Source of the DNA: Nemophila menziesii
Lineage: Eukaryota > Streptophyta > Magnoliopsida > Boraginales > Hydrophyllaceae
Assembly: GCA_029959085.1 (NCBI GenBank)
Contig: JARWIR010000093.1
Span: forward strand, 434,001-498,000
Length of the DNA: 64,000 nt
Direction of reading: 5' to 3'
Under the pieces are notes generated by a model that was not told the origin of the DNA, searched no databases, and saw nothing but the letters and a program-made list of their open reading frames with translations. A program made the position numbers and the translations under genes. Positions 2,436-26,160 of this stretch are shown here, piece by piece (position 1 is the first letter of the stretch; each line of letters begins with the position of its first letter).

Positions 2436-2444
2436 TCGTAAAGT
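2436..2444. repeat. 9-bp target-site duplication, left copy (MULE)
   Basis: TCGTAAAGT directly precedes the left terminal inverted repeat and is repeated exactly at 19719-19727. Nine-bp duplications are the hallmark of Mutator superfamily insertion. Removing one copy restores the BTAF1 reading frame. Confidence 0.95.
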
Positions 2445-2480
2445 GAGTCTGTCTTGCGTACATTTCGTGTAGGTACGCGG
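2445..2480 (+). repeat. MULE left terminal inverted repeat
   Basis: Starts GAGTCTGTCTTGCG and ends GTAGGTACGCGG. It pairs with the reverse complement of 19683-19718 at 30 of 36 positions, including an 11-base identical block CGTGTAGGTAC. Confidence 0.93.
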
Positions 2481-2701
2481 AAGGGAGATGAAGACACGTG
2501 GCAGCGGATCGATGAGGTGGCGAAATCTCGGCCACCAAAATTATAATATTATTTAATTAGTTTGACAAATGACCAAAACACCCCTCTGCAAGTAATCATT
2601 ACGTATTGTCACGTCAATGAACAGTATTTTTTTTATTTTTTTATTCGATGAATAGTAAATATATTATTATTTAATGTAAAAATATTATTATTTTATTAAT
2701 G

Positions 2702-2965
2702 TTTTTGTTCCGACATTGTTCTGTAATGGCGGCGGGTGTGTATATTTTTGTTCCAAAAAATACGGCGCGGCATAATTTTTGTTCCGTAATGTCAAACGTC
2801 CGACCAAAAATAATAAAAAAAAGAATTACACGTGTCAAGCTGTAATTAAATTGTAATATTTTAATACGTCACATCGAAGCAAGTGGATCGGCATTTTTGA
2901 ATTAATTTTCTTAGTGTATTTTTTCGTTCCAAGATAGGTAGATGTAGTGTAATTTTTTGTTCCTT
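2702..2965 (+). repeat. Left subterminal repeats of the MULE
   Basis: The motif TTTTTGTTCC (or TTTTCGTTCC) recurs about five times (near 2702, 2746, 2777, 2920 and 2953), with ACACGTGTCAAGC at 2828-2840. The right end of the element carries the same motifs in inverted orientation. They may be transposase-binding or promoter elements; that role is inferred. Confidence 0.6.
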
Positions 2966-3405
2966 TGCTCTTTATTTTTTTTGTTTGTCGTTTAGTGAAG
3001 ATATTTCTTTAGGATTTACGTAATTAGTTTGCGATCGGGTCGGATTAAACCTTTGCTTAGGTTCGTTTTTTTCTTAGGATCTAGTTGTTTTTTATTTGCA
3101 ATTTAAAATTGCATATATTGGATTTGTTGTTGACGTTTTTTTTAATTTTTTTTAGATATTATGTATATTAAATATGAAGGGATATTTATGTATTATGTTA
3201 ATTGTTTAATTAAAAAATGTATATTAGTAGTGGTGTGGTGTTGTTGTAATTTGTATTACTTTTCTAGGTAGTAAATATAGTACGGGTGACGGGATGTTGA
3301 CGGGATGGGTGATTGTGATTTGGTAGGTAGATAATGTAGTGGATATAGAGTGACCTTTCAACCACCGAAGAGGTGTTTTAGTGAGTGAAGGATGTATAAT
3401 TTGCC

Positions 3406-3414
3406 TATAAAAGG
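3406..3414 (+). promoter_or_regulatory. TATA box of the transposase gene
   Basis: TATAAAAGG lies about 960 bp inside the left end of the MULE and about 760 bp before the first in-frame ATG of the transposase. A leader and possibly a 5' intron would fill that gap: an acceptor-like CTAAC...CCCTAG lies at 4063-4080. Confidence 0.5.
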
Positions 3415-4164
3415 AAGAGTGGTGAGGGGTTAGGGAAAACCATCCAAAAGTTCTATCATATTACTTGAAGTTTCGAGATTATCATAGTGTAGGAGTTTTT
3501 AACCGGTTGAGAAACCAGCAAGAGGAATGTCTTTAAACGGTTAGTGGTTGCATTTAATTTATTATTTTTTAGGGTTGGAGTATCGTATTTACTATATTAT
3601 AGTTTTTGTGCTTTTAATATTTTAAATCAATTGTAGATCGATAATATTTACCCATTGTATATTGTTTATAGAATATTATGTACGTAAAAATTGTTAAAAA
3701 TTTCATCTTGCCGTATAAAATTTATATATTGTTGATATATTTGATATTTTTTCCCTTTATTAAAATTTATATCAAACATCGGCAATAATTGTTGTAAAAG
3801 TTAACGTAGTAGTTATGTAAATTGGAAAATCAACATAATGTAGTTGTTTTAAGTAAATCCTTAATTTTTTTTCCATCCCAGACATTAAATAATATTTTTT
3901 TCATTTAGTTCACGAAAGAGTTAGATTTATGTAGTCAAAATTAATAATACTATCATAAACGTATTTACGGATGTATTTGATTCGGTGGTCTTCTATGTTA
4001 CTTTTTTTAATGTAAGGAGATATCTAATTACACGGATTTGCTATATTTTCGAATTTCATATTCTAACATGCAAACCCTAGTACTTGCGTCCTAATCCTGT
4101 GCCAGTTGTAGGCCTTGCAGGTAGCAGTTCCGTAAACGTTGTTGCCCAACCGATTGGTGATGAC

Positions 4165-6303
4165 ATGGTAACATCTCTGACCCATGAAGATGTGATGCGG
4201 ATGCGGTTCAATAACGAGGAAGAAGCGTACGTGTTTTATAACACTTACGCTCGTGCAATGGGGTTTAGTGTTCGGAAGGATCGGTTGGATAGGGCGGCGG
4301 GCAAGGGTAGCCAAGTCGTTGGTAGGCTGTTCCTTTGTTCGTGTGCTGGCTTTCGTCTAAAAGAGTATGTCGATATGAAAGAAAGAGTTCGAGGTCACAG
4401 GGTCGAGACAAGGTGTGGATGTAAGGCTCGTCTACAGATAAAATACGAGAAATCATTTGGATGCTTCGTTGTGATTCGATTTGTGTATGAGCACAATCAC
4501 GATTTATCTCCATCAGCTAGCTGTCACCACCTGCGGTCCCACAGGCGCATTGACGAAGGCCATCTCGATCAAGCCAAATCGTTGAGAGCTTCGGGTGTTC
4601 CTACAACTAAGATAATGGACGTGTTAGTTAGGGAGGCTGGGTCATATCAAAACGTGGGTTTCTTGAGGAAAGACCTCTACAACGCTCTAGGTAGGATTAG
4701 GTCGGGCGAGGTTAGCGCTGGGGATGTTAACGCGACACTGGCCTACCTGGATGCACGTTGTGAGACCGATCCGTTGTTTTTTTTTAAATACACGTTAGAC
4801 GGAGAGAACCGTTTGGAAAGGATGTTCTTTTGCGATGGGAGGTCCAGGAGAGAGTTCGCGCTATTCGGAGACGTCCTCGTTTTTTACGCCACCTATAAGA
4901 CCAACGCCTATTGTTTCCCGGTCGTTGTGTTGGCGGGGGTCAACAACCACCGTAAGACATTTATATTCGATATCGCGTTGCTTAAGTACGAGACAACGGA
5001 ATCGTATGTTTGGGTCCTAGAGACACTGACTGAGTCAATGCACGGGAAGAAACCGATTTTCGTTGTAACGGACGGCGATAGATCAATGTCTGCGGCAATC
5101 GAACTAGTTTACCCCCGCGTAGGCCACCGTTTATGTTCCTGGCATCTGACTCGCAACGCCGTTACAAACGTAAAAGTTGAGGGATTTGGTAGTATCTTCA
5201 AGAAGCTCATGCGGCTTCCAGTTACGATCGAGTTGTTTGAAGAAGCCTGGTGGCAGATGGTTACTGAGAACGGTCTACTAGATGACAAATGGGTACGTGA
5301 GACTTACGCGAAGCATACCATGTGGGCTGAGGCATATTTACGGGGTAATTTTTTTGGTTTTGTCAAGTCAACGCAGCGCTGTGAAGGTATGAACGCTTAC
5401 ATTAACAGGTTCTTAAACAAGCAGCTCAGGTTTATAGAATTTGTAAAACTGTTTCTGAACGGAATGGTCACTATTAGGGAAAACACCACCAAAGAAGAAT
5501 ACCTCACGAACCAAACTACTCCCGTGCCCACGACTTTGTTGCATGAGATCGAAGTTAAAGCCAATAAGCAATTCACCCGGGCTCTTTTTTTAAAAGTTAA
5601 AAAGGAAATTGTCAACCAAGGAGACCTATCTCATTCAACAGCGTCACAGATATGCGGAAGTCGCACCTTTGTTGTCACGTCGTACCAAAACCCCAGGCTT
5701 GTCAGGAAAGTTTGTATCTCCTCTGACGGGTGCACTCTTAGGTTGGCTTGCAATTGCCTCCTGTTTGAGTCACGTGGAATACCATGCAGACATATGTTCT
5801 ACGTGATGAAGATCGAGTGGATTAGACAGATCCCAGATAGTTGTGTTATGTTCAGATGGACCCCTAACAGCAGCCTTACAATAAAAGACAAGTGTTTAGC
5901 CGATTTCAGACCATCAGATAAAGAGTTAGGCAGGTTGGGTTACCTAAATGCAAAGTGGAAGGACGTGCGGTACCACGCGGCCCGTAGCGATAGGGGTTAC
6001 AACGATACACTAGAAGCGTTCACCAACTTGGTCGCTAGGACAAGTAACTTTCCAAACACAGATGGCACGAATTTCGAGATTCCACCTCCTCCAACACAGA
6101 ACCTCGCTAATGACCCGCTCGTTGCAAGACCCAAAGGAACAACCACTGCCCAGCCTCGTCGGTGTAGTCGATGTAGACTACCAGGACACCAGAAGAATAA
6201 CTGCCCGGTCAAACGATCCAGGTTGCAGGACGAGGCTTCCGAGGCCGATATATCTCATTCCGATGTTGTACCAGAAATGTCCCCCCATTTCGTGTTTTAT
6301 TAA
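4165..6303 (+). CDS. FAR1/FRS-type MULE transposase
   Basis: An uninterrupted frame runs from an in-frame stop at 4078 to TAA at 6301-6303; the first ATG is at 4165 (712 aa). An upstream exon cannot be excluded, since CCCTAG at 4075-4080 looks like a splice acceptor. Domains in order: a FAR1 DNA-binding domain with CGC and HNHDLS zinc ligands; the MULE transposase domain with VTDGDRSM, HRLCSWHLTRN and TQRCEGMN; a SWIM zinc finger (CNC...GIPCRHMF); and a C-terminal CCHC knuckle, CSRCRLPGHQKNNC. The second acidic residue (TDGD) and the Glu (RCEGMN) of the DDE triad are present. The first Asp, expected in VF-D-ATYKTN, is Tyr at codon 4885-4887. The gene lies just inside the left TIR, which makes it the element's mudrA-like gene. 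It would act in the nucleus, binding the TIRs and catalysing cut-and-paste transposition. The Tyr suggests this copy is catalytically inactive or repurposed. Confidence 0.93.
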   Translation: MVTSLTHEDVMRMRFNNEEEAYVFYNTYARAMGFSVRKDRLDRAAGKGSQVVGRLFLCSCAGFRLKEYVDMKERVRGHRVETRCGCKARLQIKYEKSFGCFVVIRFVYEHNHDLSPSASCHHLRSHRRIDEGHLDQAKSLRASGVPTTKIMDVLVREAGSYQNVGFLRKDLYNALGRIRSGEVSAGDVNATLAYLDARCETDPLFFFKYTLDGENRLERMFFCDGRSRREFALFGDVLVFYATYKTNAYCFPVVVLAGVNNHRKTFIFDIALLKYETTESYVWVLETLTESMHGKKPIFVVTDGDRSMSAAIELVYPRVGHRLCSWHLTRNAVTNVKVEGFGSIFKKLMRLPVTIELFEEAWWQMVTENGLLDDKWVRETYAKHTMWAEAYLRGNFFGFVKSTQRCEGMNAYINRFLNKQLRFIEFVKLFLNGMVTIRENTTKEEYLTNQTTPVPTTLLHEIEVKANKQFTRALFLKVKKEIVNQGDLSHSTASQICGSRTFVVTSYQNPRLVRKVCISSDGCTLRLACNCLLFESRGIPCRHMFYVMKIEWIRQIPDSCVMFRWTPNSSLTIKDKCLADFRPSDKELGRLGYLNAKWKDVRYHAARSDRGYNDTLEAFTNLVARTSNFPNTDGTNFEIPPPPTQNLANDPLVARPKGTTTAQPRRCSRCRLPGHQKNNCPVKRSRLQDEASEADISHSDVVPEMSPHFVFY

Positions 6304-6436
6304 TGTAGTGTAACGTAAGCTGTTTTGTTTTTTGTATTCCCTATTACGTAATGTAACCTGGCTCCATTAGGTATTATTTTCCCTATTATGTAATGTAATC
6401 TCGCTTCATTTCGTGTTTTATTATTGTATTTTTATA

Positions 6437-7878
6437 AAAACTAGTGTTTCTACCATGAAATAGTCTAAAACAAGTGAAAGTTGACTAACGTTCAAAGTAA
6501 GTTGACTAGTGGTCAAAGTTAGTTGATTAATGGTCAAATCTCACTCTTTTTAGCTAATAACTAGTGATTCTACCATGAAAGAGTCAAGAACAAGTGAAAG
6601 TTGACTATTGGTCAAAGTTAGATGAATAATGGTCAAATCTCACTCTTTTTATCTCATAACTAGTGATTCTACCATGAATGAGTCAAGAACAAGTGAAAGT
6701 TGACTATTGGTCAAAGGTAGATGAATAATGGTCCAATCTCACTCTTTTTAGCTAATAGTAAGTAAGTGAAACTAGTGTTTCTACCATGAAAGAGTCTATA
6801 TCTAGTGAAAGTTGATTTCCGGTCAAAGTAAGTTGACTAGTGGTCAAATCTCACTTTTTTTTTTAAAAACTAGTGTTTCTACCATGAAAGAGTCTATATC
6901 TAGTGAAAGTTGATTTCCGGTCAAAGTAAGTTGACTAGTGGTCAAATCTCACTCTTTTTTTCTAACAACTAGTGTTTCTACCATGATAGAGTCTAAAACT
7001 AGTGAAAGTTGATTTCGGGTCAAAGTAAGTTGACTAGTGGTCAAATCTCACTCTTTTTTTCTAAAAAATAGTGTTTCTACCATGATAGAGTCTAAAACTA
7101 GTGAAAGTTGATTTCCGGTCAAAGTAAGTTGACTAGTGGTCAAATCTCACTCTTTTTTTCTAAAAACTAGTGTTTCTACCATGATAGAGTCTAAAACTAG
7201 TGAAAGTTGATTTCCGGTCAAAGTAAGTTGACTAGTGATCAAATCTCATTCTTTTTTTCTAAAAACTAGTGTTTCTACCATGAAATAGTCTAAAACTAGT
7301 GAAAGTTGATTTCCGGTCAAAGTAAGTTGACTAGTGGTCAAATCTCACTCTTTTTTTCTAACAACTAGTGTTTCTACCATGATAGAGTCAAGAACTAGAG
7401 TCAAGAAAGAGTCAAGAAAGGTAGATGAATAATGGTCCAACCTCACTTTTTTTTTTATAAAAACTAGTGTTACTACCATGAAAGAGTCTATATCTAGTGA
7501 AAGTTGATTTCCGGTCAAAGTAAGTTGACTAGTGGTCAAATCTCACTCTTTTTTTTTTATAAAAACTAGTGTTTCTACCATGAAAGAGTCTATATCTAGT
7601 GAAAGCTGATTTCCGGTCAAAGTAAGTTGACTAGTGGTCAAATCTCACTCTTTTTTTTATAAAATCTAGTGTTTCTACCATGAAAGAATCTATATCTAGT
7701 GAAAGTTGATTTCCGGTCAAAGTAAGTTGACTAGTGGTCAAATCTCACTTTTTTTTATAAAAACTAGTGTTTCTACCATGAAAGAGTCTATATCTAGTGA
7801 AAGTTGATTTCCGGTCAAAGTAAGTTGACTAGTGGTCAAATCTCACTCTTTTTTTTTTATAAAATCTAGTGTTTCAAC
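6437..7878. repeat. ~98-bp minisatellite, about 14 copies, rich in W-box motifs
   Basis: Units start with CTAGTGTTTCTACCATGA and recur about every 98-100 bp (first spacing about 120) from 6441 to 7876. The last unit is cut short. Most units contain TTGACTAGTGGTCAA, an inverted pair of W-box cores (TTGAC), plus another GGTCAA about 20 bp upstream. That gives roughly 40 W-box cores in 1.4 kb. The first two or three units are more divergent than the rest, and the right-hand units share AAAGAGTCTATATCTAG. The array lies between the convergent 3' ends of the transposase and F-box genes, inside the MULE. W-boxes bind WRKY transcription factors; any such role here is inferred. Confidence 0.95.
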
Positions 7879-8029
7879 CACATATTATATAAAATAAGTT
7901 GGCTATATCTACTACTACTTACGAAACCTAGATAAACATTTTCCTAAATAATAAATACCAAACTAGCCTAACATGAAAGATAATTCAACCTAATATTACA
8001 TAAAATAAACAATCTATCTAAGATCTTGT

Positions 8030-9183
8030 TCAAACAGTCGGTTGCTCAACGGAAATCAAACTTTCCTTGTACGGTTGTATGTGTTTGTAGTAAATTCGCA
8101 GACTGCCTATAATTCTTTGGTTAATATCACACGAGACTAGTTCTTCCTCGAATCGGTGGTCCTCGTTGTAGTGGTAGCTCCCGCAAAGCAAAGCTCGGTC
8201 TCGCCAATAGAATAAGCAATGATTGTAACCTAATGGACCAACTCGGTATAGCTGGGCCCATGAATTTTCCACACCGTAAACGGGCATCGACCAAACATCA
8301 ACACACCACGCATGTGCTCCATATAATTTGTTTTCCACTCTTTCAAACACGGCCAGGGATCCGTTTACCAATCCTAAATTGTTGCTGAGAACACCCCTAG
8401 GTAACTCCATTTCTCCAAATTCATTTGTTGTGACATCACAAGTGACGATTGAGTATCTAGAAAGATGAATGTCAGATGGTTCTGTGGGTTGAAACCTACC
8501 ATTTCTCGGTCTAGCCGTCCAATGGAGGACTCCGTTGCATGGCACACCTGTACCGGTTAAGTGGGGGAAATTGTAATCAAGCCTTAACCATGTTCTACTT
8601 GTAAAATTGTACACGCATGTAGTTAAAGTGCGATCAACTTGTACGAATGCGAATATTTTGAACTCGTTAGTTACCGGTGAGCATCCAAGACCAATCGTTC
8701 GTACTGTAGCAAATCCGTTCCATCCTTTGAATCTTTTCGCCTTTCTTGTTACGCCATCAGCTTCAACATAATTTGCCAAATATTGTACTACGTCTGGAAT
8801 CTTGTTGAATGTTCTAGTGGCGGGGTTGCACAAGATGATGTCTGTATAGATAAAAAACCAACTAGTCCATGAGTGGACCAGGACATTGAAGGTGGGAAAT
8901 TAAAAATTCGTGGCCGTACATCTATGACAGAGTGTAACGATAGTGTTTCAGACCGGATGATTGATAATCTTGAAAATGGTTCTTGAAATAAAGGGTGGGT
9001 AGCCAAAAAATATTCACTGTTGTTCCTATTAGCCTGGAAATGCAATCTTACAAAGTAATCAGACTCTATCAAATGGCGCCACCTTTGACTAACACATTTC
9101 ATTCGCATGAGTTGCATGACGGTGTAGTTTAGCAAAATAAGAACAAGAACATGGTCTGGTAAATAAAATTCCATTGGTTGCAT
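8030..9183 (-). pseudogene. F-box protein with FBA domain, one-base frameshift
   Basis: The first ATG is at 9183 (MQPMEFYLPDHVL), and a TGA stop lies at 8030-8032. Residues 5-50 form an F-box (LPDHVL..ILL....LMRMKCVSQRWRHLI). The C-terminal two thirds resemble the F-box-associated interaction domain (LCNPATRTFNKIP, GWNGFATVRTIGLGCSP, GVPCNGVLHW). Such proteins are substrate receptors of SCF ubiquitin ligases. The two halves lie in different frames. The change occurs at a run of six A on the plus strand (8852-8857); one more base there would join GLVGF directly to IYTDIILCNPATR. It is therefore a recent pseudogene or an assembly error at a homopolymer. Full length would be about 384 aa, normal for the family. 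It points toward the transposase across the minisatellite. Confidence 0.85.
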
Positions 9184-9268
9184 GGTGATGCTTGGAGAAT
9201 AAGTTTTCAAGTTTAAGATGTTTAAAGAATGGTTTTTTGTTTAATAAAAACCGTGGGATAATAATGGC

Positions 9269-9276
9269 TTTTTATA
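9269..9276 (-). promoter_or_regulatory. TATA box of the F-box gene
   Basis: The minus strand reads CTATAAAAAG about 85-95 bp upstream of the F-box ATG at 9183, a usual spacing for a plant TATA box plus a short leader. Confidence 0.5.
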
Positions 9277-9854
9277 GAATTTTTGTAACTAAAAATGTAA
9301 TGGGTAAGTTTATTTTGTACGTGGGGAAGTTTTTTTTCTTAGTGGGAAAGATATTCGTGTTATTGTTGAGTGGAGGAGTTATTTGGAGTGATTTATTTTA
9401 ATTTAATATTTTTTTAAATTTACATTCTTGATAAAACGTAGTATTATTGATATGAAGATATTGAATATTTTTAATTGGAGAATTTATATATTAAATAATT
9501 GATTTAGATTTGTATCCTAGGAAGTTGTTATATAGTGGAACATGTGTTATAATTTGGATATATTTTTTAATTGATTAGTTAATATTTTAAGAATCTGATT
9601 ATAAAGTAATCGTGGTTAAAATTTGGATTTGATTTATTAGATTAGATTTATTTAGTTAGATTTATCCGAATTAGGTACCGTAGTTATATTATCTTCTACG
9701 TTAAAGAATTGTGGAAATTTCCTCTGCTTAACATAGTTGATGTAGGCCATATTATATTTGTATATAGCTTGTCATGTAGGAGGTGTAGGCATAGCTCATC
9801 ACACCTATATGGAGCATTTGTCAACACTACCTACACAGGTTTTAGGGTTTGAGT

Positions 9855-9861
9855 ATATAGC
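9855..9861 (+). promoter_or_regulatory. TATA box of coiled-coil gene A
   Basis: TATATAG lies 114 bp before the ATG at 9969. A pyrimidine-rich leader with CTTCATCTTCCTCC follows, typical of plant 5' UTRs. Confidence 0.55.
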
Positions 9862-9968
9862 CACCCTACAGCCTATCTCTATCCCATCACAATAATTCAT
9901 ACACCTCCATCTTCATCTTCCTCCACAAAACATTCCTTTCGAATATCCTCCTTTCCAAAACAAGAGAA

Positions 9969-10799
9969 ATGGGTGATGAAATTTTTGGGTACCCCATAAC
10001 TCCTTTTTTCCTTCAAGAAAGTGACTCAATCAGTGTAGAGCAACAAAACTCCTCCACCGCCATGGATCCACGACAACCAACATTAGATAACACCATCAGG
10101 GACGCGATGTTAAGGTTAACAAGAATCACTCGTGGTGAACGGCTTGTTGAAGGTGGAGACCAGGTATTGTTATTTATTTGTGTAGGAGTCTCTCGTCAAA
10201 GACACGATATATTAATGAATTTATGCTGCTCTAGTGGTAGGTATTTAGGGTTACAAACTTTCTTCGGTCAGGAATATTGTTATTTCGTCCATGTTATCAA
10301 ATTAATTTAGCTACCTAATAATACCTTATACGGATCTACAAACTAATTCCACACTAGTGTTTAAACAGAAGATATATGCAACTAAAATTAAAATGAATCC
10401 TGTTTGATTTGATCTGTTCAACCACGTAGTACAAGATTTAATTTTTAATGAATTTGTAAAGTTGTAATTGTTTAACAAAATTGGTTGAGGTTTTGAATTT
10501 ATTTTTTGTAGAATAATCCGATTTACAACCCACCCAATCGTGGTTACTCAAGGCGGAAACAATTTGTCAATGTGGTGGCGCCTAATTCACCTTGTTCCCC
10601 TTGTCGCATCACGTTCCTTGAACGTCAAATTCTTGATCGTCTACGCATGATGATTCAAAGGAACTTGATGTTAGAGCGTAAGTACGAGGAGTTAAACGAG
10701 CGTATTGCGAATGTGGAAGCTAAACTAATGCGCAGAGAACGTGAAGGAGGTGGTGCTAGTTGTTTAGGGAAAAGAATGAGGGAACTAGATTTCACTTAA
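9969..10799 (+). CDS. Small coiled-coil protein A (two exons), MULE-borne family
   Basis: Exon 1 is 9969-10163 (65 codons, ends GACCAG before GTATTG). Exon 2 is 10512-10799 (after TTTTTTGTAG). The junction is in phase 0 and gives 160 aa. I do not recognise the family from named proteins. Exon 2 begins NNPIYNPPNRGYS and continues to a probable coiled coil, ILDRLRMM, NLMLERKYEELNER, NVEAKL, then a basic tail ending RELDFT. Proteins B (11675-12284) and C (14245-14601) share the pattern N-x2-L-x10-R-x4-E-x-K-[LI] and a short C-terminal aromatic motif. A and B have the same two-exon, phase-0 structure and the same inferred length, so they are paralogues. A TATA box and leader suggest it is expressed. 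The function is unknown. Position inside a MULE and repeated copies suggest an accessory role, which is inference only. Confidence 0.75.
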
Positions 10800-11593
10800 A
10801 GGTCTACAAAATCTACTAGTTCTATGCCAGTCAAGTTTGTTATTGTAATGGTAATTTAAGATTTATGTTATGTGATCACTTCCTGGGATGCTAGGTTGTT
10901 CAATAATTCTGTATGTGTTGTTGTTTATTGAGAAAGTGTAATAATAAACCACATAGATGAGTTGTAATCTAATGGTCTTATGTTGTTTGGTTGAAAACAA
11001 ATTTTATGTAACAATTTCATGCTCTATTCGGTTGTTTATGAGGTTTTTGATTTAGCAAAAAACTTCTACAGTGGTAGTGGCTATGATACTATTTTATACA
11101 CTCATACATTGGTACTTAATTTTCGTTTTTTAAACAAATTCATTGTTGATTTGATACAGCTTATTAAAAAAAATTAATGTTATGGTACTAAACAATTTGT
11201 CGTTAATAATGTCAGCGCATTTATGTTTTAAGGACTAAGACATAAGTGGCAAATATTAATAATTTAGAAATAACCAAATACTCATTAATAAGTGAAAACT
11301 GTATTAGTTATGGTACTTAAGAAGTTTTAACAACCCTTTTTCCGAAATAATGGTTTAGTCAAATTTACATTTTTCCAGGTAAAATTTTTGAAAAAGACTA
11401 AGTCCAAAAAAACTTCAAATAACTTACATTTAATCTGATGGAATTTTTTAACTCTTTTTTTTCCACAATATAAAAAGTAATCCTTCCCAAGTAATAAAAT
11501 TAAATTATGTTACTTAAGTAATCGAGTACTTCCATCTCATATACGGGCCCAAAGCTGTGATCATCCATCACGATTAGCCATGCCACCCAACGC
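10800..11593. other. Intergenic, between coiled-coil genes A and B
   Basis: AT-rich and without a credible reading frame. It contains the 3' UTR of gene A and the promoter of gene B. No repeat structure was seen. Confidence 0.55.
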
Positions 11594-11600
11594 TATATAA
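11594..11600 (+). promoter_or_regulatory. TATA box of coiled-coil gene B
   Basis: TATATAA lies 81 bp before the ATG at 11675 and is followed by a C/T-rich leader. The layout is very like that of gene A. Confidence 0.6.
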
Positions 11601-11674
11601 CCCTTATCATCTAACCCTTTATCTCCCCCACTTCAAACGCCTTTTCTTTTCTCAAAATAAGATTGACAATAACC

Positions 11675-12284
11675 ATGGCAGAAGAAGCATGCCTTAGGAC
11701 ACTAGAACGAGTTTTAGGTAAGAGAAAATTATCTGCCTATGAAACTGATCTCAAAGCACAGCAACAATACAGCCACGCATTCAATCAAAACCACGCTAGG
11801 GATTCAATGAGCAGCCATCATCAAAAATTTAACCTGCTAGAGAGCTTTGAATCGAACCCGAAGGTAAAAGACTATCCAGGTTTTTTTTAATACACACAAC
11901 GCAATCGTATTTTGTACATGCATGTTGTAGTCTTGATAGTTCTTTAGTATTTTTATCGTAATAAATACGGATGTTTTGTTAAATCAGCAGATTCCCACCT
12001 ATAATAACATGCCTACACGTTCATTCTTCCACCCCAACGTCTCTAATCCTTTCAAGGATTTTTTGACAAAGTCCGCCCATTACAACGCTGAAAGATCCTC
12101 GGTTGAATCAGAGAAAATATCAACAACGGCTCTATTGAGGTTAGTCAAGGACCTTACTGAAAAGAACAGGGTTTTAGAGAGGAGAATGTTTGACTTCGAA
12201 TGGCGTATGGTGAACATGGAACAGAAGCTGGAATCAACATCTAGAGGAGCTGTTAATAGGGTGCAAGAACACTCGTTCTTTTGA
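11675..12284 (+). CDS. Small coiled-coil protein B (two exons), paralogue of A
   Basis: Exon 1 is 11675-11863 (63 codons, ends CCGAAG before GTAAAA). Exon 2 is about 11991-12284 (after AATCAGCAG). The junction is phase 0, total about 160 aa, the same as gene A. A NAGNAG acceptor (CAGCAG) allows one extra Gln. The start MAEEACLRTLERVLGKRK is preceded by ACC, a good context. Exon 2 begins IPTYNNMPTRSFF and ends in a coiled coil (LVKDLTEKNRVLERRM, MVNMEQKL) and the tail VQEHSFF. Aligned with A over 24 residues of the coil, about 9 are identical (N, LER, R, N, E, KL). The function is not known. Confidence 0.75.
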
Positions 12285-13489
12285 ACGTTCTTATTTGGGT
12301 GAAGCATTGTTGGGTTGGTGTTTTATTTCAATTCTCAAAAACTGCTCATTTTGTTTGGCTTTAGGTTTGGATTGTCTTCTTTATCAGAGTCAGTAGTTAT
12401 CTTTTCAATGTTATCAATTCAAGGGTCAAAATGTTTTGTATAAACATTATCCTTGTAAGCTAACATTGAATTTTGTGGGATTAAATCTGGCAATGCGTGA
12501 AAAATGTTTTTATTTTAGTTCTGATTTGAATTCTCAAGTACATTTTGTTTTCTTTTTTATACCTGGAATTTAGAACCTGGTTTATGATATCAACATGGTG
12601 TTCTACTTGTTATTGAATAACTCCATTTCTAGTAGGGAGATAGTTTTCTATAACATTCTACCCAATGTTTCAATGAATAAATAAAGAAACACAGATTACC
12701 CACCCAATTTTGTGACTCCTATATGTACCTCGCATTGTTTAAAATACAACCATCAATTGGAGAACCGTAAAATCAAAGGCTATTACCTAATTCATCAAGG
12801 TTTTATATCTCTAAGAATGGAACCTAAAGTTTCGTTCGAAAACAATGTATAAATTACCCATTTTTTTGCCCAACTAAGGATTATTTGAATGTTTACACAG
12901 TGATTATGTTCCTTCCTTTAACTATATAAGATGGTTTATGTGTTTTATAGTATTAATTAAAATGCATGCTCGGTGACTCTGTTTATTGGTTTTAAAAAAA
13001 TGCTTGTTTTTTACACGCATGCAAGTCATTCCTTGCAAAACAAAATTTAATCTATGAATTTATAAATTCAAGGTCATTGTCTAACCATAAACGGTGTGCA
13101 TAATGGTCTTCATGATTGTTATGTTCGTCAAGAACATACGTGGGAAACTAATTATCAAGCTTAAACTCCAAAAATGGAATTGTTTTATATTAAAAAACCG
13201 TCACTTCATAAAGGTCAAAATACCTATACCTATAAACTTAGAGTGTATATTTGGCCAAAATGTCCCTTCCTAGTAGGTAGCTTAGTTGTAGGAGTTGACA
13301 AATCAATAACAGTCCAATCACCACCCTACAATAATGTTTTCTCCCTCCCCCATCCTTCTTTTCTTTAATTAATCCTCCAAAAACAAAAATAGAAAATTAA
13401 GCAACTGAAATTAATATTCGAATCAAAAAGTACAGGAATTACATTTAATTGCAGCTGAGGTAATCTTTTAACGAACCTCTAAATTTAAT
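12285..13489. other. Intergenic, no recognisable gene
   Basis: AT-rich spacer between coiled-coil gene B and the 3' end of the GRF gene. The only frame over 60 codons (13174-13368) shows no family motif and no codon-like composition. I treat it as chance. Confidence 0.5.
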
Positions 13490-13840
13490 TTACTTCAAAA
13501 CAACAATAATTAAGAGAAAAAATAGGATTGCCAACACACATTTCAATGTCTTTATAAAATCTGCAATAGATTGATTTAAATCTGTGGGGTTTATTGCAGA
13601 TATGTCATTATCAATTAGGTTATTTGATGAGGTCTCTCCTACTTCAGAAGTAACGTTTTCTTCTCCAATTTGCCGGCACCATCTCCAAAATCCGCAGCTG
13701 TTGCAGTAGAAGTACAGAGCACCATAGTTCCCAGTGTAGCCTCCTCGTGTTATTATAGGATCAAGCAAGGTTGGTGGATTACAGCGGCAATGGACTGGTG
13801 CTACGAAAATTGTTGCCTTATTTCTCTTCCTTCCAGCCAT
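13490..13840 (-). CDS. GRF-type zinc-finger protein with C-terminal membrane anchor
   Basis: A single exon of 116 aa, starting MAGRKRNK at 13840 and ending TAA at 13490. Residues 18-55 form a GRF-like zinc finger: C18-x-C20, a GNYG turn at 37-40, C46-x2-C49, then FWRWC. The last ~17 residues (VLAILFFLLIIVV) are a hydrophobic helix that would anchor the protein by its tail. Small GRF-finger proteins with such tails are common in plant genomes and mostly uncharacterised; GRF fingers in other proteins bind single-stranded nucleic acid. A TATA-like TATATAAC on the minus strand lies near 13940-13947, about 100 bp upstream. The gene lies between coiled-coil genes B and C inside the MULE, on the opposite strand. 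Confidence 0.8.
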   Translation of the reverse strand: MAGRKRNKATIFVAPVHCRCNPPTLLDPIITRGGYTGNYGALYFYCNSCGFWRWCRQIGEENVTSEVGETSSNNLIDNDISAINPTDLNQSIADFIKTLKCVLAILFFLLIIVVLK

Positions 13841-14244
13841 TAGAGTGTAACACGACTACTTGATGAAGTCCTACCTTTTACCTTTACTCCCCTAATAACA
13901 AGATGTGTTTTATATGGATATTACTCCCTATTAGGTCAGTTATATATGATCTGAAATGAAGATATAGCCGTTACGAAATCAACGGCTTGATTTTTATTAT
14001 TTTAACAATATCTATTAAACGTTTAAAGAATTGGTATCCCACATGTTTAAAAATTATTACTTTAATCACAGTCCCCGAAGTTTTGTAAAAGCCAGTTTGG
14101 TCCTCACATTATATTAGATGTCAAAAACCTACCCAGAAACCAAACCTACCCGGTTTATTAACATTTATCACATACTCTTCTTTTATACTGAGTTGTTGCT
14201 GCTCAACGTTTTTGGTACTTATCTCTTGAAAGAAGGTGAACGCG

Positions 14245-14601
14245 ATGAAACCCAGCTCTCAATCCCAGTTTGTTCCTCGATTTTCAAGAACATACAACGT
14301 GCCTAGGAAACATAGGCGTATTGGGGTGATTAAAAAAACTACACCAGAGAGAAAAATTGATATTGAATCAACAAATTCTAGTCGAGTTGGATCTGCATCA
14401 AGAATAAACGAGGGTGGTAATAAGTACGTGATAGATGGAGAGCGTATTTTACAGGCATTGAACGCTGTCTTGGACTGCAACGCGCGTCTTCAATGTTGTC
14501 TGGATAAAATGGAAGAAAGGTTTAAGAGCCTTGAAGAAAAAATTGCAGAATTACATCCCAAACAACCGAAGACCAGTTTAAAGGAATTCAAGTTCTTTTA
14601 A
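14245..14601 (+). CDS. Small coiled-coil protein C, paralogue of A and B
   Basis: An open frame from the ATG at 14245 to TAA at 14599-14601 gives 118 aa. The frame also opens slightly upstream (GTG at 14236), so a 5' exon like those of A and B may exist but was not identified. The N-terminal half is basic (RKHRRIGVIKK). The C-terminal half is a coiled coil (ERILQALNAVL, NARLQCCLDKMEER, LEEKIAEL) followed by the tail LKEFKFF. The N-x2-L...E-x-R...E-x-K-I pattern and the terminal F-F match genes A and B. It is the most diverged of the three. The function is unknown. Confidence 0.65.
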   Translation: MKPSSQSQFVPRFSRTYNVPRKHRRIGVIKKTTPERKIDIESTNSSRVGSASRINEGGNKYVIDGERILQALNAVLDCNARLQCCLDKMEERFKSLEEKIAELHPKQPKTSLKEFKFF

Positions 14602-15449
14602 CATTGTTTATGTGGGTTATTAAGTTTTGGGATCCTTTGATTGATGAGCCAGATTTAATGACTGACTTTTATTTACTAGTATGTAATACTTATTTACTAT
14701 TTGTGTTCTGTGATTTGATTTTTGCAATGTTTTAGTGTGGTTATGTGTTCTGCAATTCCATGTTTTATGCTCTATTAGAATAGAACTGGTTTTAAGTAAC
14801 CATTAGGCTTTGTTGTTTATGTAAGGTTAAAACTTTTGGTGCAGAAATAAGCTAAATAATCGTACCATTTATAGAGTCATACCAACTAGAAGGGAAATAA
14901 TATCAAAGTAGAGTCATACAAGTTTTACCAAATATTTTGTAGTTGAAATTGTTTACGTTTAACAATTACGCAGAAGTGCTTTTTGGTGGTGAATGTATTG
15001 TCATGAATCCATGACAGCTAAATTGGAACAACCCAGTTACAAAATCATTCAGTGGAAATTGAATCCATAAGGTTCCAAACACACACCTAGTTGCTAACAT
15101 TTTGCATCATTCATTTTAAACACGAATCCACAACTTCAACATTGGAATAAAGACAAACAGTATGTAAATTAGAGTTAAAGTTAAGTTACAACCATACTAT
15201 TAATAGCATTACCACTTGTCTGTGTTACAATACAAACCAAAAGTGCTCACTTAAGGACATCCAGCAGTTAATTAAAACTGATAATTTTGAAACATAATCC
15301 CATCACACAAGAAACCAAAAACTAGTGTTAAATAAACCCTCCATGAATCCGTGAATCTAAAGTTCCACTACATCATAAACCCTACAAACAAGAAATTATA
15401 TTTGTATCCCAAACATAAAACAAACAACTATCTGTCAATCTCTTCAAAA
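14602..15449. other. Intergenic, convergent gene ends
   Basis: AT-rich spacer holding the 3' ends of coiled-coil gene C (+) and the Ulp1-like gene (-). No reading frame or repeat was recognised. Confidence 0.5.
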
Positions 15450-18400
15450 TCAATCCTCAACAGATTCTATGTAATATCTCAAAGAATTGTGCTCTGATCT
15501 GAATAGCATTTTTGCAAGATCAAACCTTCTTTTACTTGACTCTTTGTAACCCCAATTAATCACTAGACCAGGGAACCTCATCATGTTACAAACATGCAAC
15601 GCACAATCAAGAGTACCATTTTGCTTGGGCAACCACTTTGGGTAATTCGGCGGGTCTGTACGAATAGTTGGTAATTTATGATTCTTGTCTATGAGTCCCA
15701 GCCATTCTTCTACTTTTTCCATCTACACCATCAAGAACAACATTTTAAAAATTACCCAGTTGTGATACTTTGGTTTTAAGTGAAATACAAAAGAAAAAAA
15801 CCATACCACACAAAAATACTGTTTGAGAAATGATCTCCTGGGATTCTCACTAGGAAGCGTAGAATCACAAAAATGAACCACCTTCTCGACAAAATCGACA
15901 ACGTAGAGGACCCAATGATTGTCACCCACATTTACCGGCATAAAAATATGCAAACAACCAGCCACACCACCAAAAGAGGATTATAAATCGAGGGCTGGGT
16001 TAAAAACAATACAAATAAATATAAATAATGTTGCCCAATAAAAGGTCCACTCATCCAACATACCCGTTCAACGTCCTTTACGTCTCCGTTACATCTCTTT
16101 GAGCCATAATAAACACGGACATTGTCCTCTGGTGTATGCAATCCACTTACCAATACGGACTACACGGTAATAAGAACCAAAACTAAAATTAAACTCTGAA
16201 TGACCATGTAAATAAAGCTTGAATGGAAACATAACTATCACAGTTACTGAAAAATATGTTGGCATATACCATATTTTGCAAGTTGGATCCCTAGACTTGG
16301 TCTCCTCAACCAACATCTCGCCAACCAAATCAATAACCTAAGAAAACTCAAAGTATGGGGTATATATTAATTTAACTAAATCACTAAATGAAATAAATAT
16401 GAAGTTCAACTATTAATCCAGTTTACGAAATTTATAGTTTTAAGGGACTCACATCAGCAGATACATATTTAGCAGGATTTAGCAGCTGTCTCATGTGTAA
16501 ACGATTTAGGTTATAGCGCGGGAACGATATTACCATCTCACTGTCCAACCAAAGTTATAAATTAAACATAAAAACCCGTACAATCCCTACACTAAAACCT
16601 TTTACGTACCTATCATCCGGTGAAGGGTCACTTAGATACTTCAACAGCAACTTGTCGTCTTTATTTAGCGAAATTGAATAAGAGGACCATCCATGATGAT
16701 CACCCATTTGTATTTTATAGGGAGAAACAGAAACCTTAAGGGGAGTCATACAACCGCTAGACAAGTCTATGACATGTTCTCTTTTAGCCTTTTTAGCTTT
16801 AACATTGTTAGAGGGGGGCTTCATCAGTCCAGATTGTGGAGACTGGGGTTTTTTAGCACTAGACTTTACCACGGGACTTGGTGACTGGAATCCCATCTCC
16901 ACGTCCCTAACAACGGAAGACCCAGTTGGTGAACCAAATAGACTTCGGGTTTCTCCAGCCGCGATATCTACAAAAGCTTTACCTTTTCCGGTAATAGAAC
17001 CGGCTAGACTTTCCACATACCCTCTCAATTCATCTAACTCTCTTCTTCTCACCCACTCCTCCCCGCTACTTTTATCGAATCCACACCGTTTGTTCTTCGC
17101 GCTTGAAGGGGTCGCAAACAACTCTTCCCGGATACCTTTCCTGGGTGCTTTCTTAACATCGACCTTCTCAGCATCACCTTCCTCCTCCTCAGACTCCAAC
17201 TTCCAAAATCTACAGAAACTATAGTTCTTCCCCCCACACCTTTCGAGTTCCTTCACCTTCTTCGAAGCGGTCTCGGTGGACCAATGCTGACAAAACGGCA
17301 AAGCCGTGGGAACAGGTTTAAATTTGTTCATGCGCTGAACATGTTGAAGAAACAAAATCTGCAAAACATTCAATCCATCAGCAATACAATATCAGAACTC
17401 CAACTAAAAAGACTCATTAAACTTTCATTACAAAAATAACAAAATTAGGGTACAATACAACTTCACTAACCTGTAACACATACACGCATCCAGGAAAATA
17501 CTTAGACTTACAACTGGGGTCAGCACCATTAAAAACCTCAATACCTCGAACTATAGTATTGTACACAAGCAGTGACCAATTAAACTGGCCAATCAAATCA
17601 ACATCCGCAACGGAATGAAAAAAGGACATATCTAGTCCATGCACGTTGCCTGGACACAACAGAAAACCAGTTACATACAAAGTAAACAACGCCTTGAACC
17701 CGTCTCCGTGACTGGCGCACCCGAGGAATCGAGTCTCCAAGGCGTTCAAGTGGACAGCACTTTTTTTAACAATGTTGACTTTAAATAAGTCCTCAAGCTC
17801 GCTAACCCTGTCTAAATCCCCACCACTCAGGGGGGGTAATTCTCCGGTCATCGGTATCCAAAGAACCCTATTCACATCCACATAAGAAAAAGACAATCTG
17901 CTGCCATACAGGTTAAATTCGCTATTGACGGGATCGAATATTTCCGCCATTTCTGTACAAATGTCATGCTTCAGAACACTCTTTGGAAGAAGAAGTAAGC
18001 CTCCAAACCCCATTTCATTTACAACCGCCTTCTGTTCCTTGGAAAGGTGCTGGCTTAAAAGGGTAATTTTATTTAATGAAACCTTTGTGGACAGCTGTAC
18101 CTGCATTAACACGTACAAAACACAAGCAATTTAGGGAATTACATATACAATACACATCTATAAAAAGTATAATTGCATACACAAAACTTCAACACATGCA
18201 ATTCACTATTAGAAATTAATATAATTTGAGTAAGACCCATGGATTATTATACTTTAAACAATAAAAATATGCCATACTCATTAGAATTACGTATACTATC
18301 TTACACTATACAAAAACTATACCCAAGTAGTCCCATAATTCAACAAAATAAAATGTAGCCTAAACTTAATACAATCGCGGCTAACTACCTATTAAATTAT

Positions 18401-19168
18401 AAGACTACCAAACACCATGAACTATAGATAACATCTACTAAACCACACCCTTTAGGAAACAAATCCATAATATCCATACTACCTAAAATAGGACACTTGA
18501 ATTGAAGACCAAAATAACTACACAATCAATAATCACTCAGATTGTAAATCAAATGACATATGATGTCGATTAATGTTAAAAAACATAAACATTTTCATAC
18601 AAGTTTTTAATAGCAGACCTACAACAACAGAAAAATAACAAAACAATCCAGAGATTCTTGCCTGATTGCCCTCTGGATTATCCCCACCCATCTCTTTGAC
18701 GCTATCTTCCTTCTCCACTGGTTGAAGCTTGCTCCCGCGAAAGCCATCTTCATAAATAGCCCTCCGATGAGGTGGAAGCGTGTCAAACAATAAGACTTGG
18801 GCATCCCAATCTAAAACGGCATCGGGACAATTAACTAGCGCATCACGCGCTACACTTTGCCTAATTATCATATAATCATACATATACATTAAACAAGAAA
18901 TCAAGTACATAAGCATAAACAATTCTTCAAGAAAGTAAATGAAACCACTTACGCATAGTACTCCGCGGCGTTCTTCGGCGGAGGAAACCCAGCTCGGTCT
19001 CTTCTAGGTGGGGCTCTACTTACACCAAATGTAAAACAATTTAATTAACATCACTAAAATGATCAAATAGAACTTTATTACTAACCCTTTGCTGTTAATC
19101 TTCTTCCCTGTGCTGCGACCCATCCTAGAGTTCGCAATAGACCCGCTTAAATTAGATCGAGATGCCAT
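15450..19168 (-). CDS. Ulp1-like C48 cysteine protease gene of the MULE (about 10 exons)
   Basis: Model on the minus strand: exons 19168-19086, 19015-18953, 18860-18662, 18100-17471, 17358-16610, 16540-16453, 16337-16270, 16145-16064, about 15965-15807, and 15722-15450. Phases agree at every junction except 8/9. There the catalytic frame has a TAA just upstream (about 15984), so a frameshift or an unseen exon is likely. The product is about 795 aa. It has an N-terminal plant-specific domain (LETRFLGCASHGDGFKALF, FNWSLLVYNTIVRGIEVF), a low-complexity middle with KKPQSPQSG, and a C-terminal C48 domain: His in GDNHWVLYVVDF, Asp in VHFCDS, Gln and Cys in KQNGTLDCALHVC. C48 enzymes remove SUMO-like modifiers. 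Intron 3 appears to be GC-AG (CAG/GCAAGA). The gene reads inward from the right TIR, the place of mudrB in MuDR. Ulp1 genes inside plant MULEs are known; this copy may be damaged at exon 9. Confidence 0.82.
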
Positions 19169-19456
19169 TGAATGAAAATCAAAGTTGAAAGAAGGCGGAG
19201 AAGTTAGTGGAGATGGATGGAAAGAACTTAGAAGGATAAAGAGAAGACAAGGACGATGAAGAGTGCAACAATGGAGATGTAAAAGAATGAAGACCTACCT
19301 GCAAGACTCCAAGCAAGGCTAGCTCCTAGGAACGTCAGCGGTGGGTACCTAGGTGGAGAGAGAAGGTGGATGAAACGGCGGAGTGACATGTCCACTTACC
19401 TCGGGACATTCAATTTAATTTTTTTTAAACTCAAAAAGAAATTACATAGTCCGCAT

Positions 19457-19606
19457 GCTTGACACGTGTTAGTAAAAGAACGAAAAGATACACTACCCGA
19501 CAAGATTGAACAAGAAATATAGTACTCGGTGGAACAAAAATTAACACATAAGCGTGAAGGGATGACACAGGAACAAAAATTTGTACATCATACAGAACAA
19601 AAATTT
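19457..19606 (-). repeat. Right subterminal repeats of the MULE
   Basis: GGAACAAAAAT occurs at 19531-19541 and 19570-19580, and a variant AGAACAAAAATTT at 19594-19606. GCTTGACACGTGT lies at 19457-19469. These are the reverse complements of the TTTTTGTTCC and ACACGTGTCAAGC motifs at the left end. Confidence 0.6.
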
Positions 19607-19682
19607 AAAATCTACATCTAGCCCCACAAAATAAAGTACGTTTTAAGGGCATCCTGGTAAATTGCTAAAGTTTTTTTTTAAG

Positions 19683-19718
19683 CCGTGTACCTACACGGAA
19701 TGTACTGAAGACGAACTC
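19683..19718 (-). repeat. MULE right terminal inverted repeat
   Basis: The minus strand reads GAGTTCGTCTTCAG... to GTAGGTACACGG. It matches 2445-2480 at 30 of 36 positions and abuts the duplicated TCGTAAAGT. Confidence 0.93.
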
Positions 19719-19727
19719 TCGTAAAGT
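19719..19727. repeat. 9-bp target-site duplication, right copy (MULE)
   Basis: TCGTAAAGT, identical to 2436-2444. On the BTAF1 coding strand it is ACTTTACGA, part of the codons for K-L-Y-E. Confidence 0.95.
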
Positions 19728-20996
19728 TTAAGCTGTACAGAGCTAAGATCGCAAAATCTGTCTTGAATAATCTTTTCTGGAAGATCATGTAAGACTTCAG
19801 CTTTTGTCCGACGAAGAAGAAACGGCATAACCTGACATCATTAAAAGTTGTAAAATGTGGGCCCCACCTTAACAAGAATTTAAACACTATATAATACCTG
19901 CTTATGTAACGCTTCCATAGCAAGTGCACCTGCTTCAGCATCCTTTGCTGAACATTTCGGATCCCGAGCTGCTATTAATGGTTTTCCATAAGTTGCTTGA
20001 AACTGTTTAAACAACAAAACATCAGTTTATAATTTATTTTTATTTTTAAAAAAAAATAACTTACTTGTCTTTCAGTTCCAAGAAATCCAGGCATTAGAAA
20101 ATCAAATAGTGACCATAAATCCAAGACATTATTCTGTAGATTAAGGTAATTAATTATATAAAAGAAAAATAAAAATACTAAAAAATCGTAAACAAACCTG
20201 GATAGGTGTACCACTTAATATAAGACGATGTTGAGCTTTCAAAAGCTTATGCCATGTTTGGTTTACGAAAACATTTTCTGTTTTCGTTTTCAGAATATGT
20301 TTTCCAAAAATGATTTTCGTTTTCTTTTCAAAATTTTCAGAAAATATGGAAAACGTCGATTTCACGTTCTCCAATATAGCACTGTTTTCATTTAATTTTC
20401 TAGAAAACTGTTTTCATTTTCTCTAACCAAACATGTTTTTATTAGTATTTTGGAAAATATAGAAAATAAAAACAGAAAATACCTATTATTTTCACAAGTA
20501 ATTTTCGATTTATTATTCCTAATAATATGCCCTTCATCTAAAATACAATAATTCCACGATAATTCCGTTAAAGACTCAACATCTTTACGCACAACATCAT
20601 AAGATGTAACAATCACACTATGTTTATCAAATTGTGAACGTAGTAATAATCGATCTTGAGCTGATCCAACGTATTGAAGTGTCGATAATAAAGAAGAATC
20701 AATAAACTTCTCGATTTCATAAACCCAATGTCCCACTAAAGTTAAAGGACATATAATTAAAGAAGGTGAAAGATCGTTAATTTTATTATTAGCTATATGT
20801 TCAGCTATATCAGAAGCCATTATAGCTGAAGATTGAAGAGTTTTACCTAATCCCATATCATCACATAATATTCCATGAAGATTAAATCTTTTCAAAAAAG
20901 CTAACCAGTTAATACCTTCTTGTTGATACCTTCTAAGAGTAACTTTTAAGGGTGAATTACCAAAGGGGTCTTGGGACCATCTTAGAGCCATATAGG
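19728..20996 (-). pseudogene. BTAF1/MOT1 gene fragment, Snf2 ATPase part
   Basis: Minus-strand exons run about 20962-20482, 20246-20198, 20133-20065, 20002-19898 and 19831-19719 (into the target duplication). They encode the N-terminal Snf2 helicase lobe: TLRRYQQEGINWLAF, Walker A DDMGLGKTLQ, ICPLTLVGHW, DEGH box (ILDEGH), LILSGTPIQ, LWSLFDFLMPGF, FLLRRTK, PEKIIQDRF. DEGH rather than DEAH and the motif order identify BTAF1/Mot1, the TATA-binding-protein remover. Most exon borders are canonical GT-AG. The first ~1,400 residues (HEAT repeats) are missing: homology begins near 20960 and the sequence is then cut by a hAT-like element at 20997. A MITE interrupts it near 20253-20435, and the 17-kb MULE cuts the last exon. 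It is a truncated copy, not a working gene. Confidence 0.88.
20253..20435. mobile_element. Small MITE with CATGTTTGGTT ends
   Basis: The sequence begins CATGTTTGGTT and ends AACCAAACATG, an 11-bp perfect inverted repeat. The interior is rich in GAAAAC/GTTTTC. It lies between two BTAF1 exon pieces. These ends resemble PIF/Harbinger-type MITEs, but I cannot see a clear 3-bp duplication. Confidence 0.6.
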
Positions 20997-24090: not shown

Positions 24091-24526
24091 TGAAAGAAAT
24101 AAATAAAATAAATATTTATTATATTTATTTGATTGTCCGCCAAAAATGTAGTTAATAGTTTTTGTTTTGAATTTAAATATTTAAATTCAAAAATCAAGGG
24201 AAGTTATTTATTTTATAACACCACTTTCCCATTATAAGAGAACGGCCTTATCATTATCTGAAGGGAAGTCAGAAGTTAGACAACTCTTCTATTTACATCT
24301 TCAATTCAACGCTCAATATCTGAATATATACTTTTCTCTTCTCCATAAAAAAAAATACACAAATCAAAAGAATCTGAGGCTCTTAGGTTGTGAACAAAAG
24401 TTCTTCTTCCCTGTAAGAAGATCTGTGATCCAAGCAAAAGAATCTGTGTTTTTTTAATTTCCGCTGCTCTTCAAGAGGTAAACACTTATGAATCCTCTTG
24501 TTTTTTATATCTAATTAATTCTTTCA
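24091..24526 (+). repeat. copia-1 5' LTR
   Basis: 436 bp, TGAAAGAAATAAATAAAATA at the start and CTAATTAATTCTTTCA at the end, immediately followed by the primer binding site. Confidence 0.95.
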
Positions 24527-25714: not shown

Positions 25715-26160
25715 ATGATGTTTGCTAGTTGAATTTGCAGTAGGTAGTTTGCTTAAGTAGGTTGTTTTCTTCAATTTTTTTTCATTCCATGTTTGTTAGA
25801 AATTACATAAGTTGCTTTTATCCCTTTGATTCAGTATTTTCTTTATTGAACATGTTTTTCTAGTTATGTATGAATTCAACTATTTCCCTTTGCTTTTATG
25901 TTTTAGTTGTTTATTTTTCATACAATATCGCTCTATTTATGTTAGAGTAAGTGGGAGTTCTTGAAGAACTTATTTCGCGGTTAATGATTTTGATTGAATG
26001 ATTAAGACAAACAAAATATAGTGATTCATGATTGGGAACATAGTGAACTTTCTTTATCACTTATTTTGTTATCTTTGTTATTCATTCCATTTGCATTAAT
26101 AGCTTAAAGTTGTTAAATAAATGTATGTTATTAATGGAAATCTCTTACTTTATAGAGAAA

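Follow-up and report, generated by a model that had tools for sequence, protein, structure and literature searches.

A seven-gene lineage of Mutator-like transposons with a palindrome-bearing 99-bp array in Nemophila menziesii

The window, by which we mean the whole 64,000-nucleotide stretch analysed here (C355:434001-498000 of the 1.52-Gb Nemophila menziesii assembly), holds a Mutator-like element in which the transposase is accompanied by six other genes. The question that this locus raises is whether such a set was put together by random capture or is instead the common property of a multi-gene lineage and, in the latter case, what the accessory genes might do for the element that carries them.

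The element and its genes in the window

2436..2444, no strand: target-site duplication, left copy, TCGTAAAGT
2445-19718: Mutator-like element, 17,274 bp, with terminal inverted repeats (TIRs) and target-site duplication (TSD)
2445..2480, + strand: left TIR, arm of 36 nt
4084..6303, + strand: transposase frame with FAR1 and MULE domains, start codon position provisional
6478..7880, no strand: 99-bp tandem array, 13.7 copies by TRF (6511-7880), 12 TTGAC-N5-GTCAA palindromes
8030..9210, - strand: F-box gene in two frames (8030-8833 and 8788-9210), F-box Pfam match 3e-7
9969..10799, + strand: coiled-coil gene CC1, predicted exons about 9969-10163 and 10515-10799
11675..12284, + strand: coiled-coil gene CC2, predicted exons about 11675-11863 and 11988-12284
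13490..13840, - strand: GRF-like zinc finger gene with a hydrophobic C-terminal helix, a predicted tail anchor
14245..14601, + strand: coiled-coil gene CC3, one exon
15450..19169, - strand: Ulp1-type (Peptidase_C48) gene, multi-exon, gene model partial
19683..19718, - strand: right TIR, arm of 36 nt
19719..19727, no strand: target-site duplication, right copy, TCGTAAAGT
20392..20991, - strand: host SNF2 (BTAF1-like) open frame adjoining the insertion, SNF2 Pfam E 2.9e-35

The two 36-bp arms, identical at 30/36 positions (83%), and the perfect 9-bp duplication on both sides are as the preliminary description of this DNA had given them, and the TIRs, the 9-bp TSD and the MULE transposase domain together place the element in the MULE superfamily. 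That description had also recommended a search for empty sites: once the element and one TSD copy are removed, the flanks join into 217 nt that align over their full length (217/217) at 97% with two uninterrupted loci of this genome (C346:879217-879433 and C1:1481663-1481879), so that the insertion was precise and its empty state exists. The element interrupts an SNF2/BTAF1-like gene, the name BTAF1 for this SNF2-type host gene being that given in the preliminary description. Beyond the host gene, NB-ARC and LRR-type resistance-gene frames occupy 22003-24106 of the window and are followed by a copia-type element at 26110-30210.

The identities first proposed for the two outermost genes hold. 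The transposase carries an N-terminal FAR1 domain (PF03101, 3.1e-20) and a MULE domain (PF10551, E 6.3e-23), its C-terminal fingers scoring below cut-off (SWIM, 16.4 bits against 19.6; CCHC, 12.5 against 20.8), and the Ulp1-like protease gene, on the strand opposite to the transposase, matches Peptidase_C48 at 1.5e-7, with candidate catalytic residues that are presumably H (NHW), D (FCDS), Q (KQN) and C (DC). For the genes in between, the original assignments stand in part. The F-box gene does contain its domain (3e-7), but in the window, whose element belongs to family A, its frame is broken in two; a family B copy and a family C copy (see below) have it in one frame, of 380 and 384 aa respectively, and the FBA_1 match in the family B protein is weak, below cut-off. 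Three coiled-coil genes are likewise present, but their alleged paralogy is unproven, the pairwise hhalign probabilities being 54, 11 and 56; in aligned sequences the C-termini are kept across families A, B and C (CLGKR.R.L.F in CC1, EH.F in CC2, FF in CC3), and CC3 has in addition a conserved N-terminal FVP....TYN.PRK. As for the GRF-finger gene, the pattern CxC...C..CGFWxWC is invariant in 7/7 aligned sequences, but its identity as a GRF finger is weakly backed: the Pfam match (PF23549 Zn_ribbon_GRF_2, E 0.045) occurs in one of the seven members, a Pfam scan of the window copy yielded no match, and the confident part of its AlphaFold model (mean pLDDT 53) is the C-terminal helix only. When CC3 and the GRF alignment were compared with a plant-containing database, no match was obtained at E 0.01, which, the search being word-based, is weak evidence of absence from other plants; the best transposase match in that database was at 43%.

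Copies, movement and selection across the genome

Chaining gene matches spaced less than 13 kb apart yields at least 39 loci, the window included, that carry all seven genes in one order and orientation, namely transposase (+), F-box (-), CC1 (+), CC2 (+), GRF (-), CC3 (+) and Ulp1 (-). Partial loci in the same genome number at least 15 with six genes, at least 8 with five and at least 23 with four. Across the 39 loci, identity to the window falls as low as 71% in the transposase, 45% in the F-box gene, 56% in CC1, 40% in CC2, 45% in the GRF-like gene, 28% in CC3 and 52% in the Ulp1 exon, reaching up to 100% in both the transposase and CC3. These figures derive from at least 61 transposase places (61 scored of 1971 candidates, one second fragment having been removed from 62), from 112 matches for CC1 (seven second fragments removed from 119), 72 for CC2 and 103 for CC3, and from the best 150 of 229 GRF, 144 of 1078 F-box and 150 of 818 Ulp1 candidates. 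Another gene of the set is found no more than 20 kb away, placed and oriented as expected, for 72/72 CC2, 101/103 CC3 and 108/112 CC1 matches, and for 135 of the 150 GRF matches listed. By the same measure at least 76/144 F-box matches are linked and 68/144 unlinked, the latter including 4 loci in which the F-box gene is merely inverted.

The preliminary description had argued that the presence of the same middle genes in other copies would point to a multi-gene MULE lineage rather than random capture, and that the lack of F-box, coiled-coil or GRF genes in every other copy, or a close intron-bearing host paralogue of each at an unlinked locus, would speak against it. Since the complete set recurs in the same order and orientation at no fewer than 39 loci, and CC1-3 and GRF are rarely unlinked, that argument is upheld and, for the coiled-coil and GRF genes, neither contrary prediction is borne out.

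Two groups of F-box genes stand out. In a sub-lineage of 70-75% F-box identity (C1:136218556, C121:12154068, C1:11649252 and C340:39581807) the strand of the F-box gene is flipped with respect to its CC1, GRF and CC3 neighbours. Elsewhere, some 40 F-box frames, most of them 391-392 aa long and a few shorter, are scattered about at 34-37% identity, mostly without partner genes, 17 of them with the same score (e.g. C110:77794040 and C200:69270986); they possibly represent another recently amplified F-box-bearing element.

The ends of the element are repeated in the genome as well, with 40 matches for the left end (first 116 bp) and 40 places for the right end (last 159 bp, one second fragment removed from 41), the window being included in both counts. 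Setting aside the 5/40 left-TIR places without a right-TIR partner leaves 35 paired A-family ends, of which 29 are flanked by exact 9-mers and 2 by duplications matching at 8/9 in register, while 1 matches at 8/9 out of register and is not counted and 3 have none; the scoring allowed small offsets at both ends, whereby chance matches are slightly raised. Other copies flanked by 9-bp duplications, for which the preliminary description had proposed a search, thus exist. Four of the 29 exact TSDs trace to one insertion with the same flanks, copied along with segments spaced some 97 kb from each other on C96 and C100; this AAGAAGATG insertion, with four occurrences, two per contig (C96 and C100:26.49-26.61 Mb), reflects a segmental duplication, to which a duplicate contig is likely to be added. 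A sub-group of copies (C340, C318 twice, C307) starts with GGGAA instead of GAGTC and shows 9-bp TSDs in 3/4.

The gene order extends to other families. Family B includes a 17,835-bp element (C24:27027816-27045650) that has TIRs, is flanked by the TSD TTTGGTCAT and keeps the full set of seven genes in unchanged order, and family C, in which no TIRs were recognised in the 20 kb read, also has all seven genes ordered as in the window. Further B copies on C1, C35 and C352 differ in their TSDs (9-10 bp) yet agree at all 1001 bases of a mostly intergenic stretch between CC1 and CC2, which contains the predicted CC2 exon 1 and in which the C24 copy differs at 8 positions; whole elements have therefore moved recently. 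The C1 and C352 copies have all seven genes, and the C35 copy is without an F-box match among the matches listed.

For every gene, dN/dS is below 1 in the copies compared. Within family A it ranges from 0.16 to 0.28 in the transposase (4 copies, the 44-Mb copy being omitted because of two stops) and, in 5 copies each, from 0.17 to 0.29 in the F-box gene, 0.12 to 0.31 in CC1, 0.09 to 0.39 in CC2 and 0.06 to 0.24 in Ulp1; the medians are 0.25 for GRF (26 of 30 copies) and 0.46 for CC3 (30 copies), the latter, with values up to 0.80, being the least constrained gene of the set. These pairwise Nei-Gojobori estimates, obtained on single exons or pieces and from non-independent pairs, indicate that the genes of the element are under purifying selection in the copies compared; comparisons of accessory genes with families B and C are mostly saturated at silent sites. 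Distances disagree from gene to gene: for the pair of copies at C307:28.3 Mb and C340:8.1 Mb the F-box gene gives a dS of 0.03 and CC2 one of 1.19, and the C12 copy is at 97-99% to the window in partial transposase and Ulp1 matches and at 63% in CC2, so that elements seem to exchange blocks. That the window element is a discrete unit, bounded by TIRs and TSD, of a seven-gene Mutator-like lineage is the structural part of our explanation, and we regard it as practically certain.

The 99-bp array and what the accessory genes may do

An array of period 99 lies between the transposase and the F-box gene in all three families (TRF, 13.7 copies in A, 28.1 in B and 28.7 in C) and contains the palindrome TTGAC-N5-GTCAA 12, 28 and 28 times, respectively, that is, in most units of the window array and in every unit of the B and C arrays. 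Elsewhere the palindrome is found 0 times in the window and 0 and 1 times in the two stretches fetched for families B and C, and shuffled units contain it by chance in 26-28 of 200,000 cases. The 15-bp core is identical between B and C units; outside the core, ungapped comparison gives no detectable homology between B and C (22/82 positions against 22.5 expected) or between A and B (26/82). A and C units are homologous there (44/82 ungapped, 0/2000 shuffles), and the period of 99 may therefore be inherited rather than selected. The array as a coding repeat (99 = 3 x 33) is ruled out, since every array has at least 17 stops in any of its six reading frames.

Seven copies shorter than 10 kb retain both TIRs, all with exact TSDs (7/7), and the array is kept in 6/7; in the short copy on C121 no array was present in the 2.9 of 6.7 kb read. 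Four of the six array-bearing short copies have none of the seven genes among the matches listed, and those on C220 and at C307:51.95 Mb have two palindromes, 21 bp apart, in most units. A genome search with the A array gave 220 matches, of which those listed fall into 32 loci, 31 of them in elements known by other matches. The remaining locus, C285:19261-23421, is a 99-bp array without a TIR or gene match among the matches listed. In a family D (C1:2492592-2495591, transposase at 65%) the F-box gene is followed by a tandem array of 39 bp with GTCAA cores, and no 99-bp array is present in the 3 kb read.

The explanation that we favour for this seven-gene lineage, tentatively and with somewhat less than even confidence, is that the accessory genes and the 99-bp array form a self-made anti-silencing module which would keep the transposase expressed. 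Such a module is suggested by analogy with the VANC pattern of a conserved transposase, a faster accessory protein and diverging repeats. An element-encoded protein would bind TTGAC-N5-GTCAA in the array, the simplest binder being the transposase through its FAR1 zinc finger or, otherwise, one of the coiled-coil or GRF proteins. FAR1 and WRKY fingers are related to each other (the term WRKY-GCM1 is used in FAR1 papers) and TTGAC[CT] is the core of the W-box, a kinship that, together with the W-box core in the array, makes the transposase the simplest candidate. The Ulp1 protease, by removing SUMO, and the F-box protein, via a host SCF ligase, would then clear silencing proteins of the host from the array or render them unstable, with the coiled-coil and tail-anchored GRF proteins as a putative scaffold, and gene-less short copies could be served in trans because they keep TIRs and array. 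Several observations weigh against this module: VANC-type domains were not found in the pieces scanned, the 99-bp period may be inherited, family D and the short C121 copy show no such array in the 3 kb and 2.9 kb read, constraint is weakest on CC3, and Ulp1 copies of the KI type are held to be improbable SUMO proteases (see below). A bolder formulation, which we consider doubtful, would see here a second, independently built plant-transposon anti-silencing system, with a six-gene kit (SUMO protease, F-box adaptor, tail-anchored zinc finger and three coiled-coil proteins) aimed at the 99-bp-phased palindrome array and gene-less derivatives served in trans. Because the arrays are a concrete DNA target, it becomes directly testable whether transposons disarm host silencing via SUMO or ubiquitin routes.

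The same array lends itself to other explanations. In each palindrome, TTGACTNNTGGTCAA, two cores of the W-box consensus TTGAC[CT] stand in inverted orientation, and the density of these cores per kb is 30.6 in the A array, 20.1 in B and 29.6 in C versus 0.9-1.5 elsewhere, as might suit a W-box-type enhancer that uses host WRKY factors in a stress-activated element whose accessory genes have other roles; we deem this unlikely, given that a WRKY enhancer leaves both the linkage of seven genes and the recurring 99-bp period unexplained. Alternatively, the accessory proteins might serve transposition itself (strand transfer, reinsertion or replication timing) and the array might be an internal site of transposase loading, a notion in keeping with the TIRs, and in 6/7 the arrays, that the short copies maintain and with mudrB, which encodes a second Mutator protein that takes part in reinsertion, as a precedent. 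It appears rather improbable to us, however, as the F-box and Ulp1 genes point to protein turnover and not to transposition itself, and as the short copies on C220 and at C307:51.95 Mb have transposase and Ulp1 alone among the matches listed, yet exact TSDs, even if these copies could have been mobilised in trans. That a single element picked up pieces of host genes at random, as in Pack-MULEs, merits hardly any credence, for although gene capture is frequent in Mutator-like elements, F-box genes are abundant in plants and almost half of the listed F-box matches are unlinked to the set, the shared order, dN/dS values well below 1 and the few unlinked CC1, CC2, CC3 and GRF copies rule it out as an account of the whole set; ancient capture of single ancestors of the set genes is possible.

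Relation to known systems

Pack-MULEs are MULEs with extra genes inside, a trait shared by the present element; here, however, these genes are a conserved set and not fragments, and the Pack-MULE hallmark of captured host fragments that have host paralogues and evolve without selection is not what we find, many unlinked relatives being seen for the F-box gene alone. This gene set is not described in the titles and abstract openings listed from the open-access literature, and the available table rows of a broad MULE survey comprise groups with one or two ORFs (PMC6446971). Compared by domain content with the Jittery-group MULEs as listed in that survey, the window lineage has in common a FAR1 and MULE transposase and TIRs of tens of bp; the listing gives them one ORF and a TSD "not indicated/8 bp", whereas the window lineage has seven genes, a 9-bp TSD and the 99-bp array (PMC6446971).

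With Kaonashi (KI/KIU) and other Ulp1-bearing MULEs, the lineage shares a Ulp1 gene reverse to the transposase, and some grapevine Jittery-like families also bear Ulp1 (PMC13317346, PMC2528002, PMC6117577). Unlike it, KI-MULEs are given as having no TIRs and three genes (PMC13317346), and the portions of these sources available to us make no mention of F-box, GRF or coiled-coil genes in Ulp1-bearing MULEs (PMC13317346, PMC2528002, PMC6117577). KI-type Ulp1 copies are regarded as unlikely to act on SUMO (PMC6117577).

The parallel with the VANDAL elements of Arabidopsis is one of organisation. The window lineage differs from them in its TIRs, its 99-bp period and a palindrome common to families, and VANC-type domains (DUF1985/DUF287) are absent by Pfam from both large exons of the Ulp1 gene, its protease exons when joined, and the other frames scanned. 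As described in the accessible parts of the VANDAL literature, VANC binds to short motifs within non-coding tandem repeats of diverging sequence and strips methylation (PMC5735166, PMC10398659), and both systems combine an accessory protein that evolves faster than the transposase with non-coding tandem repeats that diverge between families (PMC5735166). That a MULE lineage has kept seven genes together while CC3 diverged to 28% identity illustrates how complex an accessory programme a DNA transposon is able to maintain.
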